From contig NZ_CP109013.1 in NCBI RefSeq assembly GCF_036226745.1, positions 4,588,001-4,652,000 of the forward strand: a stretch of 64,000 bases of DNA, in the 5' to 3' direction. The notes below the pieces were generated by a model. The model made no database searches, was not told the origin of the DNA, and was given only the letters and a program-made list of their open reading frames with translations. How positions within the stretch are numbered: the stretch's first letter is position 1; each line of letters starts with the position of its first letter. Shown here one piece after another: positions 4,901 to 57,379 of the stretch. This stretch comes from Streptomyces sp. NBC_00683 (GTDB taxonomy: Bacteria; Actinomycetota; Actinomycetes; Streptomycetales; Streptomycetaceae). The position numbers and the translations under genes were made by a program.

Positions 4901-4953
4901 GAGGCCCGCCCCAGGGGCGTCATGACCCGTTCATGACCCCGGGGGCGGGCCTC
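4901..4953. terminator. Terminator hairpin between hspR and convergent LuxR gene
   Basis: A perfect 12-base inverted repeat, GAGGCCCGCCCC at 4901-4912 and its complement at 4942-4953, with a 29-base loop. It sits between convergent genes and partly within the 3' end of the LuxR gene, so it may end transcription from both sides. Confidence 0.6.
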
Positions 4954-5933
4954 TGTGCTGTCCCGGTGCCGGCCTCGGCGATGCCGGACCGGACGATGAG
5001 CGCTCCCAGGTGGGTCCGGCTGCGGGCGTCGAGCGTCTGCATGAGCTTGGAGATGTGGGAGCGGCAGGTGCGGACGCTGATGCCCAGCTTGCGGGCGACC
5101 ACGTCGTCGACGTGACCCTCGGCCAGCAGCCGGGCGACGCTCTGCTGGACGGCGGTGACCGGGGCGCCGGGGACGGTCGCGGGCAGCTGCTGGGTGAGGG
5201 GGGTGGCCTGCGCCCAGAGGACCTCGTAGACCTGGGTGAGATAGGTGACGAGCGCGGGATGGCGGATTTCCAGTGCGGTCTCCCGTGTGGGAGTGGCAGG
5301 GATGTAGGCCACGGCGCGGTCGAAGATGATGAGCCGTTCGACGGTCTGCTCGACGGTCCGTACCTGGAGGCGGTCGGGCGGTATCTCCGCCACGTAGTCC
5401 TTGAGCCCCGGGCTGTAGCGTGCGGGGTGCTGGTAGATGTGCTTCAGACGGGCCCCCGAGGCGATCGCGGAGCGGGCGTTCTCCAGACCCTGCCGCATGT
5501 TGTGCGTGAGCCTGTTGCCCCCTGGCTGCGCCGTCAGGACCTCCTCCTTGGCATGGGTGGAGGCCTCCCGGAGCACGGAGATGATCAGCGACCGCCCTTC
5601 GAGCACGGTGATCGCGTGGTTGGGGTCCTCATCGGCGACGGCCATCAGCGGCGCCAGCGCCCCCGACAGTGCGGAGGTCAGCCGAATCCGCTCGTCTATC
5701 TCCCTGGTGATCGGCTGCAGCAGGTGGGCCAGGGCGGCGGACGGCGGGACCGGACGGAGCCACGCGTCGTCGCCCGGGTCGGGCTGGACGAGGACCATCT
5801 CCAGCAGGCACGGAGCGGAGTCCAGGTCGGAGCGGGGGAGGCGTCCCGCGCGCAGCGCTTCCTTGTACAGGCGTATCGCCGGGTCGCACAGCTCTCGATT
5901 CCCATGAGAATGGGTCGGTTTTGCCTTTTCCAC
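4920..5933 (-). CDS. LuxR-type regulator with PLD/TrmB-like sensor region, paralogue 1
   Basis: A 337-residue transcription factor. The C-terminus (about 255-325) is a LuxR/NarL helix-turn-helix with LLAEGHVDDVVARKLGISVR followed by CRSHISKLMQTLDARSRTHLG. The N-terminal two thirds contain an ITVLEGRSLI segment and a KHIYQHPARYSP-VAEIPPDRLQVRT stretch, then IIFDRAVAYIPA. From memory this resembles PLD/TrmB-like sensor regions found in Streptomyces regulators without response-regulator receivers. It aligns along its whole length with the next gene upstream on the same strand (6025-7005), sharing the unusual N-terminal THxHG start, so the pair is a tandem duplication. The start is GTG at 5933. 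The effector is unknown. Being beside a repeat-peptide gene suggests peptide- or metabolite-responsive control, which is inference. Confidence 0.82.
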   Translation of the reverse strand: MEKAKPTHSHGNRELCDPAIRLYKEALRAGRLPRSDLDSAPCLLEMVLVQPDPGDDAWLRPVPPSAALAHLLQPITREIDERIRLTSALSGALAPLMAVADEDPNHAITVLEGRSLIISVLREASTHAKEEVLTAQPGGNRLTHNMRQGLENARSAIASGARLKHIYQHPARYSPGLKDYVAEIPPDRLQVRTVEQTVERLIIFDRAVAYIPATPTRETALEIRHPALVTYLTQVYEVLWAQATPLTQQLPATVPGAPVTAVQQSVARLLAEGHVDDVVARKLGISVRTCRSHISKLMQTLDARSRTHLGALIVRSGIAEAGTGTAQRPAPGVMNGS

Positions 5934-6024: not shown

Positions 6025-7005
6025 TCACTCCTGATCCAGGATCCCTGACTGCGCTATCAGATAACCGAGTTGGGCGCGACTGTTGCTGCCGAGCGCGGCG
6101 TTCAGTTTGGCCACATGTGCGCGGCAGGTGCGGACATTCATGCCGAGACGGCGCGCAATCGAGTCGTCGACGTGTCCCTCGACGAGGAGTTGGGCTATCG
6201 CATGCTGAACTCCACTGATGCCGAGCGTCGTCGGGTTGTACTTGACCTCCTCCAGCAGAGGAGCGGCTCGGGTCCAGAGCTGTTCGAAGACCTTGGCGAG
6301 GTACTCGACCAGTCCCGTGTGCCGGAGTTCCAGGGCGACTTGACGGTCGTCCGTGGCGGGGATGAACGCGACCGTGCGGTCGAAGATGATCAGGCGCTCG
6401 ATGAGTTCTTCGAGCGTGCGGATCTCCACGTTCTCGTCCGCGATGCGTTCGGCGTACGCCAGTGTGGCGGGGCTGTGCCGCACGGTGTGCTGGTAGAGCG
6501 TGCGGATGCGTACACCGCGGTCCACGACGGACAGGCCCCGCTCCAGGGCCTCGATGAGGCGGTCCTCGCTCCGGCCGCCCCCCGGCTGGACGGTCAGGAC
6601 CTCGGTCCGGCATTCGGCCGTGGCGAGGTCCAGTGCCGCGTTGATCCGGTTGGCGCCTTCAAGGACGGTGATGGCGTGGGTGGTCGGCGGGTCCTGGGCG
6701 CTGATGTCCATGTAGGGCTCGAAGGACTCCGTGAGCAGGACGGAGCGCCGGCGGCGTTCCAGGATCTCGCGTTCGAGCGGGTGCAGGTGTTTGGCCAGCG
6801 CTGCGGACGGGGGCACGGGCCGGAGCCAGTCCGCGTCGTCGGGATCGGGATGCAGTAGGGCGAAGTCGATCAGGCACGGAGCGGCTGCCACCTCGGCGCG
6901 GGCGATGCGCCCGGAGCGCAATGCGCTGGCGTAAAGCCGCCCTCCCTCTTCGCACAGTTCGGTGATCCCGTGAGGATGTGTCGGCTTTGTGTAGCTTGTA
7001 GTCAT
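6025..7005 (-). CDS. LuxR-type regulator with PLD/TrmB-like sensor region, paralogue 2
   Basis: A 326-residue paralogue of the downstream regulator. It opens with KPTHPHGITELCEEGGRLY and has the same order of blocks: AITVLEGANRI, LTVQPGGGRSEDR, TLYQHTVRHSPATLAYAE, IIFDRTVAFIPA. It ends in a LuxR-type helix-turn-helix, LLVEGHVDDSIARRLGMNVR then CRAHVAKLNAALGSNSRAQLG. The ATG at 7005 was chosen because GGGGGGTGGAGAT precedes it and homology with paralogue 1 begins there; the frame stays open upstream to 7113 without support. It is divergent from the repeat-peptide gene. A perfect GTTCCTG-N6-CAGGAAC palindrome at 7021-7040 lies in its promoter, so autoregulation and control of the peptide gene are plausible. 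No phosphorylation domain is present. Confidence 0.83.
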   Translation of the reverse strand: MTTSYTKPTHPHGITELCEEGGRLYASALRSGRIARAEVAAAPCLIDFALLHPDPDDADWLRPVPPSAALAKHLHPLEREILERRRRSVLLTESFEPYMDISAQDPPTTHAITVLEGANRINAALDLATAECRTEVLTVQPGGGRSEDRLIEALERGLSVVDRGVRIRTLYQHTVRHSPATLAYAERIADENVEIRTLEELIERLIIFDRTVAFIPATDDRQVALELRHTGLVEYLAKVFEQLWTRAAPLLEEVKYNPTTLGISGVQHAIAQLLVEGHVDDSIARRLGMNVRTCRAHVAKLNAALGSNSRAQLGYLIAQSGILDQE

Positions 7006-7020
7006 ATCTCCACCCCCCAG

Positions 7021-7040
7021 GTTCCTGAACATGCAGGAAC
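7021..7040. promoter_or_regulatory. Palindromic operator candidate between LuxR gene and repeat-peptide gene
   Basis: A perfect inverted repeat, GTTCCTG, six bases, CAGGAAC, lies 16 bases upstream of the LuxR start and about 75 bases upstream of the peptide gene start. A weaker repeat, ACTCG-N8-CGAGT, follows at 7052-7069. No copy is visible upstream of paralogue 1. A likely binding site for the adjacent LuxR protein (inference). Confidence 0.6.
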
Positions 7041-7115: not shown

Positions 7116-7445
7116 GTGAGGACGAAGCCGACTATGTATAAGCGAATGCTTCGCTCGGCGCTTGCCGCCTCGTTCGTTGCAGCCTTGGGCATTGGACTGG
7201 CGGGCGGGGGCGACATCGCATGGGGCGGGGAGGCTGTCGCAGCATCGGGTGACATCGCCTGGGGTGTCCAGGCCGCGCCTGCACCGGGTGACATCGCCTG
7301 GGGCGTTCCGGCCGCGTCCGCATCGGGTGACATCGCCTGGGGTGTCCAGGCCGCGTCCGCATCGGGTGACATCGCCTGGGGCGCTCCGGCTGCTTCCGCA
7401 CCGGGTGACATCGCCTGGTCCGCTCCGGCCCTTATCGGCGCATGA
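7116..7445 (+). CDS. Exported repeat-peptide precursor (six 13-residue GDIAWG repeats)
   Basis: This 109-residue protein (GTG at 7116; an in-frame ATG at 7134 is an alternative) starts with a basic region, YKRMLR, and a hydrophobic stretch, SALAASFVAALGIGLAGG, typical of a Sec signal peptide. The whole remainder is six tandem 13-residue repeats starting GDIAWG or GDIAWS, ending exactly at the stop codon. The linkers are Ala/Ser/Pro-rich (for example VQAASAS, APAASAP), with AxA-like steps before each Gly-Asp. At DNA level GACATCGC recurs at 7212, 7251, 7290, 7329, 7368 and 7407, an exact 39-base period. The stop overlaps the next ATG (ATGA). I do not recognise the family. A secreted multicopy signal peptide, a modified-peptide precursor or a repetitive surface protein are all possible. 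Confidence 0.72.
   Translation: MRTKPTMYKRMLRSALAASFVAALGIGLAGGGDIAWGGEAVAASGDIAWGVQAAPAPGDIAWGVPAASASGDIAWGVQAASASGDIAWGAPAASAPGDIAWSAPALIGA
7209..7442 (+). repeat. Tandem 39-bp repeat array (6 units) encoding GDIAWG units
   Basis: Six in-frame units of exactly 39 bases run without interruption to the stop codon. The GACATCGC(C/A)TGG core is almost invariant while linker codons vary between GTCCAG, GTTCCG and GCTCCG. The regular period makes gain or loss of units by slippage or recombination possible. Confidence 0.92.
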
Positions 7446-7762
7446 CCACCCCTCCGGACGACCGCACCTTCCGGCGGGAGATGGCCACGGCCTATCGGTC
7501 CGGGTGGCACTTCATCGATCTGCTCACGGCGCTCACCGGCCGTGGCGATTCGTTGATGGTCACCCTGTTCGGAGAGCCGATCGTCGTGGTGATGGAAACG
7601 GACGACGACGTCCGCGCCTATCGCTGTCTCCGCCGGCCCCGTGGGGCGCCGCAACCGGTTCGCTGTGCCGTGAGGTACGGCATGATTTTCGTCAATCTCG
7701 ATCAGCGGGACCACGAGCTGTTCGAACAAGAAGCCATCTCCGCCACCCCCCGCAGTGCCTGA
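7442..7762 (+). CDS. Small protein resembling a degenerate Rieske-oxygenase N-terminal segment
   Basis: A 106-residue protein whose ATG overlaps the stop of the repeat-peptide gene by four bases, so the two are translationally coupled. The segment DSLMVTLFGEPIVVV-ETDDDVRAYRC resembles the entry strand of Rieske ring-hydroxylase domains (x-x-VTL-GEP-VVVRD-DG-VRAF-NVC). The following RYGMIFVNLDQRD resembles the W-G-FVFVNLDP stretch found later in those enzymes. Between them the CxH and CxxH iron-sulfur ligands are missing or shortened (only C-L-R-R-P-R-G is seen). It is therefore unlikely to bind a 2Fe-2S cluster and may be a repurposed or decayed fold. Its coupling to the peptide precursor suggests a joint role, perhaps processing, binding or immunity (inference). 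Confidence 0.65.
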   Translation: MTTPPDDRTFRREMATAYRSGWHFIDLLTALTGRGDSLMVTLFGEPIVVVMETDDDVRAYRCLRRPRGAPQPVRCAVRYGMIFVNLDQRDHELFEQEAISATPRSA

Positions 7763-57309: not shown

Positions 57310-57311
57310 CC

Positions 57312-57367
57312 GGAACGACGGAACGACGGAACGACGGAACGACGGAACGACGGAACGACGGTACGAC
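57312..57367. repeat. 8-bp tandem repeat GGAACGAC (seven units)
   Basis: Six perfect GGAACGAC units are followed by GGTACGAC and a partial GGTACG, starting two bases after the stop of the upstream gene. A simple sequence repeat liable to slippage, just upstream of the terminator. Confidence 0.92.
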
Positions 57368-57379
57368 GGTACGTACGTC

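Follow-up and report, generated by a model that had tools for sequence, protein, structure and literature searches.

A putative peptide signal with a repeated DxxWx core and a co-varying LuxR-family regulator in Streptomyces

What could be the role of a small bacterial protein that, beyond an N-terminal leader, consists entirely of six 13-residue units? Such a protein is encoded at 7134..7445 (plus strand) of the window, the 64,000-nucleotide stretch of DNA analyzed here, which sits at positions 4588001-4652000 in the 8.52-Mb genome of Streptomyces sp. NBC_00683; the relatives of the locus come from Streptomyces. We estimate at roughly three in four the probability that this locus encodes a peptide signal together with its matched receptor, such that an exported precursor would be cleaved and the resulting peptide would re-enter the cell and bind the cytosolic regulator r1, encoded next to it. 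Because the core word of the peptide differs between species and the regulator changes in step, the signal and the receptor are likely to be species-specific.

The precursor gene and its neighborhood

The sequence GACATCGC occurs at positions 7212, 7251, 7290, 7329, 7368 and 7407, at a constant spacing of 39 bases, that is, six times in the real sequence compared to no more than twice in any of 200 shuffles; Tandem Repeats Finder assigned the array scores of 271 (period 39) and 305 (period 78). Each of the six units consists of GDIAW(G/S) and a linker, and the array ends at the stop codon (7443-7445), so re-reading and shuffling confirm the exact periodicity noted in the preliminary description of this locus. 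The core copies, all on the plus strand, are DIAWG at 7212..7226, 7251..7265, 7290..7304, 7329..7343 and 7368..7382, and DIAWS at 7407..7421. The array is preceded by a hydrophobic, positively charged, Sec-like leader MYKRMLRSALAASFVAALGIGLAGG (7134..7208, plus strand; the cleavage point is approximate), which is recognizable from its own sequence and from similar leaders among the relatives, in agreement with the signal peptide proposed previously. The GTG at 7116, originally taken as the start codon, does not appear to be one because loci of the DITW type, L009 for one, lack a base between this GTG and the ATG at 7134 and thus conserve the ATG frame but not that of the GTG; moreover, many database homologs start at MYKR. 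Translation thus probably starts at ATG 7134, yielding a protein of 103 amino acids.

Database searches yielded 42 homologs of the precursor at E <= 1e-3, whereas comparison with Pfam produced only matches below the cut-off, and comparison with NCBIfam, none. Some of the homologs carry the database name “5'-nucleotidase”, which we rejected as having no support in the sequence. The fold of the leader RNA was not unusual (z -1.43), and no promoter was found in a sigma-70 scan.

The stop codon of the precursor overlaps, in an ATGA, the start of gene2 (7442..7762, plus strand), which encodes a 106-aa truncated Rieske-type domain. Both the fold and the profile of gene2 match Rieske, but the iron-sulfur ligands C-x-H and C-x2-H are missing from the consensus of 52 gene2 proteins, as read by eye. 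The gene is conserved and translationally coupled to the precursor. Downstream of gene2 are a PPOX-class gene and then clpB, and r1 and its neighbor r2 are preceded by dnaK, grpE, dnaJ and an hspR-like gene (chaperone names read from translations). Among 79 relatives with long flanks, the PPOX gene was present in 76, clpB in 72 and hspR in 68, within the stretch covered. The only candidates for modification enzymes beside the precursor are gene2, devoid of the ligand pattern, and this PPOX-class gene (76/79 loci).

The proposed receptor, r1 (6025..7005, minus strand, with the ATG at 7005 and residues numbered from MTTSYTKP...), is a regulator that combines a TrmB/PLD-like sensor (PLD, phospholipase D) with a LuxR HTH. 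The AF2 model (pTM 0.54) and the profile of r1 match PLD/TrmB folds and LuxR HTHs, with VqmA among the structural matches, and all elements of the TrmB architecture, namely, the N-terminal winged helix, the coiled coil and the PLD-like sensor, are present. In Pfam searches, the GerE/LuxR-type HTH scored above the cut-off in r2 and below it in r1; no autoinducer-binding domain was found in either protein (E <= 1), and no TPR family in r1. The protein has no evident export signal. The second regulator, r2 (4920..5933, minus strand), is a paralog 48% identical to r1 that is absent from some loci and could be a second receptor.

Between r1 and the precursor, there is an inverted repeat, GTTCCTG-N6-CAGGAAC (7021..7040), a candidate operator that is conserved in an alignment of 35 loci, the CAGGAACATGATG arm most of all. 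The 24-base operator pattern has 26 sites in the genome when up to 3 mismatches are allowed, compared to 7 for a backward control, but a single exact site, the one in this locus, and therefore we do not claim an operator regulon.

Distribution of the system and diversity of the core

The locus is widespread in Streptomyces, with gene2 present in 248 of the 295 genomes of this genus; in an order-wide draw, gene2 was found in 223 of 293 genomes but in only one of 9 genera. Among the 33 Streptomyces genomes shown in a class-wide search with the r1 profile, all 27 with gene2 match r1 at E <= 4.3e-99 (one in pieces), whereas the 6 without gene2 have no r1 match better than 5.0e-62. The 196 loci with an upstream ORF yielded 178 distinct precursors, of which 174 were retained as the loci for the covariation analysis, following the exclusion of L127 and L128, which lack a core, L123, for which the wrong ORF had been selected, and L029, whose fragmented r1 did not pass the position filter. 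In the loci examined, r1 is divergent to the precursor, and an r1 match is missing only in L127 (G048) and L128 (G258, 0.21 Mb), both coreless, where relatives of gene2 are found without an adjoining r1 match or a core precursor. The L029 locus of Streptomyces globisporus 1912-4Crt still has gene2 and a precursor with one DLAW copy, but its r1 match is fragmented, possibly, a case of receptor loss.

The preliminary description, which envisaged a precursor that is exported, carries several copies of a peptide and is encoded beside LuxR regulators, is supported by the findings on the entire family, with export, cleavage and secretion being putative: proteins with such cores and leaders are encoded next to LuxR regulators widely in Streptomyces, beyond close strains, and differ in copy number from 1 to 11. 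The repeated core is real, but the recognized unit is [D/E/N]-x-x-W-x rather than GDIAWG, and the multicopy layout, with up to 11 copies, is not universal because a single C-terminal copy also occurs.

Within a protein, the core is nearly constant. Among the 178 distinct precursors, 145 contain two or more cores, of which 135 are fully uniform, and 555 of the 565 copies in these 145 proteins match the majority core of their own protein, as detected with the pattern [D/E/N/G]xxW, which is blind to copies without Trp. Between proteins, by contrast, there are 39 four-mers and 74 five-mers across the 174 loci, including DIAW, DIGW, DITW, EISW, EPTW, DPGW, DSIW, DTSW and NTQW; two random loci share a four-mer core with a probability of 0.053, so the uniformity within proteins exceeds chance. 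The first position is Asp in 138 loci, Glu in 32 and Asn in 4. For copies with exactly matching cores, the third core codon encodes the same residue by a different codon in 42% of the within-gene pairs, and the residues flanking the core agree in only 25-59% of the pairs. Judging from these sequences, the maintenance of one core word per species looks like the result of selection.

No obvious conserved protease site was detected in the core flanks or the linkers. The precursor is single-copy in 32 of the 174 loci and contains one or two copies in 79; in 28, it ends one residue past the Trp. An Ala immediately precedes the first core in 30 of the 174, where the residue at -3 is small, aliphatic or Arg. 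When two loci have gene2 sequences with 97% identity or more, the r1 sensors are on average 0.958 identical if the core is the same (105 pairs) but 0.710 if it differs (372 pairs). Thus, the sensor diverges with the core while gene2 stays alike, as in pherotype switching.

Covariation of the core peptide with the regulator

We calculated APC-corrected mutual information over the columns of r1, gene2 and the core for the 174 loci, which correspond to only about 32 effective sequences. The strongest coupling between genes links core position 2 to residue 136 of r1 (z 12.1), followed by core position 2 with residue 157 (z 11.2, level with an adjacent column pair just 5' of the r1 start) and core position 5 with residue 149 (z 8.5). 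Along the peptide, the best coupling to r1 is 3.4-4.4 for the four positions preceding the core, 6.2 for position 1, 12.1 for position 2 and 4.0 for position 3; it is undefined for the invariant Trp, and then 8.5, 3.4 and 5.6 for positions 5, 6 and 7, and at most 4.0 further on. Equally near the precursor, gene2 couples to any peptide position at 2.4 at most and, having no coupling to the core, was set aside as the binding partner of the peptide.

The residues involved pair in a chemically plausible manner. Ser at core position 2 is accompanied by Met136 and Asp157 in 36 of 36 loci, and Thr by Asp157 in 16 of 16, with Val136 in 15; Pro goes with Leu136, residue 157 being Val, Met, Ile or Leu (35/35), Ile with Val136, residue 157 being Gly, Ala or Ser (60/60), and Leu with Val136 (16/17). 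These correspondences suggest what is nearly a code, in which a hydroxyl side chain would face an acid, and an aliphatic side chain, a small residue.

Shared ancestry was addressed with two trees, one built from gene2 and r1 without the sensor domain, and the other from the sensor domain without the candidate residues, the latter added because the sensor and the core appear to travel as a cassette. On the first tree, Ser2 and Met136 change together in all 7 of the supported independent pairs (p 0.0156 by the sign test), and in 5 of 5 inside the Ser/Thr loci (p 0.0625); Ser-or-Thr and Asp157 do so in 4 of 4 pairs, and for Pro and Leu136, there is just one independent pair. When core position 2 was simulated on this tree, no column reached the coupling observed at 157 or at 136 (0/400 runs each); r1 columns 14 and 190 were also beyond the null, by a narrower margin. 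The corresponding counts were 1/400 for core position 5 with 149, 6/400 for core position 1 with 245, and 8/400 for core position 3 with 151. On the sensor tree, the null reached the observed coupling in 0/300 runs for core position 2 with 157 and in 1/300 with 136, whereas columns 14 and 190 became weak (12/300 and 13/300); core position 5 with 149 was moderate (9/300, any column), and positions 1 and 3 were not significant. The supported pairs on this tree numbered 6 of 6 for Ser2/Met136 (p 0.031) and 1 of 1 for Ser-or-Thr/Asp157. Given these two tree-based nulls, we regard the coupling of core position 2 to r1, as seen in the sequences, as firm, and that of core position 5 as likely.

Same-locus paralogs and more distant systems

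Several regulators of the r1/r2 type follow one another beside the precursor in loci such as L042, L067 and L165. For the paralogs located in the same loci (108 rows, each with at least 800 aligned bases), the outcome depends on the strand. The plus-strand paralogs have Val136/Ala157 in 25 of 27 cases, irrespective of the core. In the minus-strand paralogs, an acid is present at 157 in all 38 rows from Ser/Thr loci, in none of the 34 from Ile/Leu/Pro loci and in one of 9 from Val loci; Ser and Thr loci are not distinguished by residue 136, and the 4 Pro rows have Ile136/Ser157. The minus-strand paralogs thus follow the 157 part of the r1 code but not the 136 part. Because the acid rule is followed in 38 of 38 rows, these r2-like paralogs may be second receptors, so that the peptide may have more than one.

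A similar arrangement recurs among paralogs and in other genera. Near 3.81 Mb of the same genome (L091:903-1157), a regulator 32% identical to r1 is divergent to a leader ORF of 84 aa that contains four copies of DNGWS and stops at the last of them; we consider this ORF a putative second signal; in the other nine paralog loci (L092-L100), no leader ORF with a repeated core passed the filters. A search of 150 Streptomyces genomes with the DNGWS-linked paralog gave matches at E <= 1e-60 in 20. Across the class, the r1 profile matched in 65 of 345 genomes and 15 of 126 genera; 40 of the many class-wide matches were examined, and the distant set comprised 66 r1-like loci. The regulator set A1 consisted of 91 of the 96 listed references and the r1 and r2 of the window.

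A leader ORF with a repeated or C-terminal [DEN]xxW was found on the strand opposite the regulator in 19 of the 66 distant loci, compared to one of 66 for the same strand, and was not detected in 47. Of the 19 opposite-strand ORFs, 11 are divergent upstream and 8 convergent downstream, and three (L228, L233 and L282) are weak, single-copy cases. Some cores are located at or beside classical AxA sites, such as SPAHA/DTSWG or SPAQA/DTAWE...DTAWE-stop; a homolog search with the DTAWE precursor returned two records, both 100% identical to the query. In the 17 assigned DxxW systems, several of which are close relatives of one another, an acidic residue 157 (Asp or Glu) accompanies Ser or Thr at core position 2 in 11 of 11 cases but Pro, Asn or Asp at this core position in none of 6, while an acid at 157 is also present in 38 of the 48 rows without an assigned core. 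An exception to the Ser/Thr-acid rule is L309:860-1048, a leader ORF with two copies of a different core type, SWDWPK, whose regulator has Asp157.

Proposed mechanism and alternative explanations

We propose that the leader directs export of the precursor, and that extracellular proteolysis would then free a peptide of four to five residues (here, DIAWG/S) in multiple copies, which would re-enter through an oligopeptide transporter and bind the PLD/TrmB-like domain of r1. The bound regulator would act differently at the shared divergent promoter, with its inverted repeat GTTCCTG-N6-CAGGAAC, and at other sites. Residues 136 and 157 would read core position 2, and residue 149, probably, position 5, keeping the signal private, in a pherotype-like manner. 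The sequences compared here show the layout of the locus, the constancy of the core in a protein and its change between species, the r1-core covariation and the recurrence of the arrangement; we infer export, cleavage, import and binding, as well as the direction of regulation and the regulated functions.

An alternative is that r1 reads the unprocessed precursor, or its repeats as a series of short binding motifs, before export, gauging precursor synthesis or secretion capacity instead of a signal from outside. Such intracellular sensing would agree with r1 having no evident export signal, with linkers devoid of a conserved cleavage site, with the high copy number in some species and with the chaperone genes that adjoin the locus in many relatives. 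We nevertheless regard it as unlikely because a single copy is present in 32 of the 174 precursors, 28 end one residue past the Trp, and 30 place the first core directly after an Ala with a suitable residue at -3; in addition, relatives have the core straight after classical AxA sites, and variation between species fits a private extracellular signal. A distinctly less probable explanation is that the repeats are the modification substrate of a RiPP pathway, with gene2 or the PPOX-class gene as tailoring enzymes and the regulator sensing the modified product. The invariant Trp and acidic residue of the core, the Rieske origin of gene2 and the presence of the PPOX gene in 76 of 79 loci are compatible with this possibility, but gene2 lacks both the Rieske ligand pattern and coupling to the core, and the distant systems, in which the regulator and the peptide gene were the parts examined, were found from these two alone.

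Finally, the precursor and the r1 sensor might be swapped as a cassette without any contact between them, with the repeats being part of a structural or surface protein, the main alternative in the preliminary description. The contrast in sensor identity between loci with the same and with different cores (0.958 vs 0.710 for gene2 pairs at or above 97%) is what such linkage would produce. However, the sensor-tree nulls are exceeded all the same (core position 2 with 157, 0/300; with 136, 1/300), the residues pair in a chemically reasonable way, in distant systems as well, and proteins with one or two copies (79/174) would make poor structural repeats. With a surface protein, there would be no explanation for a core that is uniform within proteins but changes between species, or for the covariation with a regulator devoid of an evident export signal, and we consider linkage without contact the least probable of these explanations, by a hair behind the RiPP pathway.

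Relationship to known signaling systems

The closest parallel is with the RRNPP systems of Bacillota (Rap/Phr, PlcR/PapR, NprR, Rgg, PrgX), which include a small propeptide with a leader, an adjacent gene for a cytosolic receptor, a short linear peptide as the signal, and co-variation of the peptide and the receptor, as would the locus described here. A leader-like sequence and a short core are recognizable here from sequence. The DxxWx system is not an RRNPP member because its proposed receptor is not a TPR protein but combines a PLD/TrmB-like fold with a LuxR HTH; it also differs in belonging to Actinomycetota and in often containing many tandem core copies. By analogy, it is best viewed as a candidate peptide signal with a cytosolic receptor, RRNPP-like in the way it would work but with an unrelated receptor, and would deserve a class of its own if binding proves true.

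The archaeal TrmB and TrmBL2 proteins, of which TrmB binds a sugar (as also in the entry title of 2f5t), resemble r1 in fold, but r1 has a LuxR HTH added at the C-terminus, and a peptide takes the place of the sugar as its presumed ligand. With LuxR quorum-sensing regulators and LuxR solos, r1 and r2 share the GerE/LuxR-type HTH but not a Pfam autoinducer-binding domain. In the ComX and Agr systems, too, the peptide is specific to a strain or species, and the receptor varies along with it; their receptors are membrane histidine kinases and their peptides are modified or cyclic, features not seen in the DxxWx system. Precursors of yeast alpha-factor and of the dikaritin type similarly carry head-to-tail copies of a short core behind a leader, whereas the system described here is bacterial, the linkers examined lack KR/KEX2-type sites, and modification genes are not evident.

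In open-access full text, we found no description of the peptide or of its pairing with r1. According to passages of an RRNPP survey, actinobacterial quorum signals are typically small molecules made by enzymes (PMC10075063), and a 2026 review gives gamma-butyrolactones as those of Streptomyces (PMC13220807). On balance, and less firmly than the reading of this locus itself, we favor the view that the locus represents a new class of Actinomycetota peptide quorum sensing, in which exported DxxWx peptides, often in tandem, are read by TrmB/PLD-fold LuxR regulators through a simple residue code, which would provide Streptomyces species with private signals, and in which the receptor of S. coelicolor, SCO3664 as judged by gene order, would restrain the production of actinorhodin.

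In excerpts of the literature on S. coelicolor, clpB is SCO3661 and hspR is SCO3668 (PMC2631018), the LuxR family is given for SCO3665 and SCO3666 (PMC3282765), and actinorhodin is reported to have risen more than 50-fold when a transposon inserted into SCO3664, described as a regulator (PMC6585502). From gene order and number alone, we infer that SCO3664 is the r1 of this species. Given this reported rise in actinorhodin, and because SCO3664, by its number, lies in the locus, a connection with the control of antibiotic production is already open to testing. If our interpretation is correct, most of the sampled Streptomyces would possess a ribosomally made, species-specific peptide signal with an identifiable receptor, an added channel of communication in the main antibiotic-producing genus; inexpensive synthetic molecules to induce or block gene clusters, and a readable peptide-receptor code, would then come within reach.

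Elsewhere in the window, at 57311-57373, there is a nearly perfect 8-base tandem repeat, CGGAACGA, with 7.9 copies.
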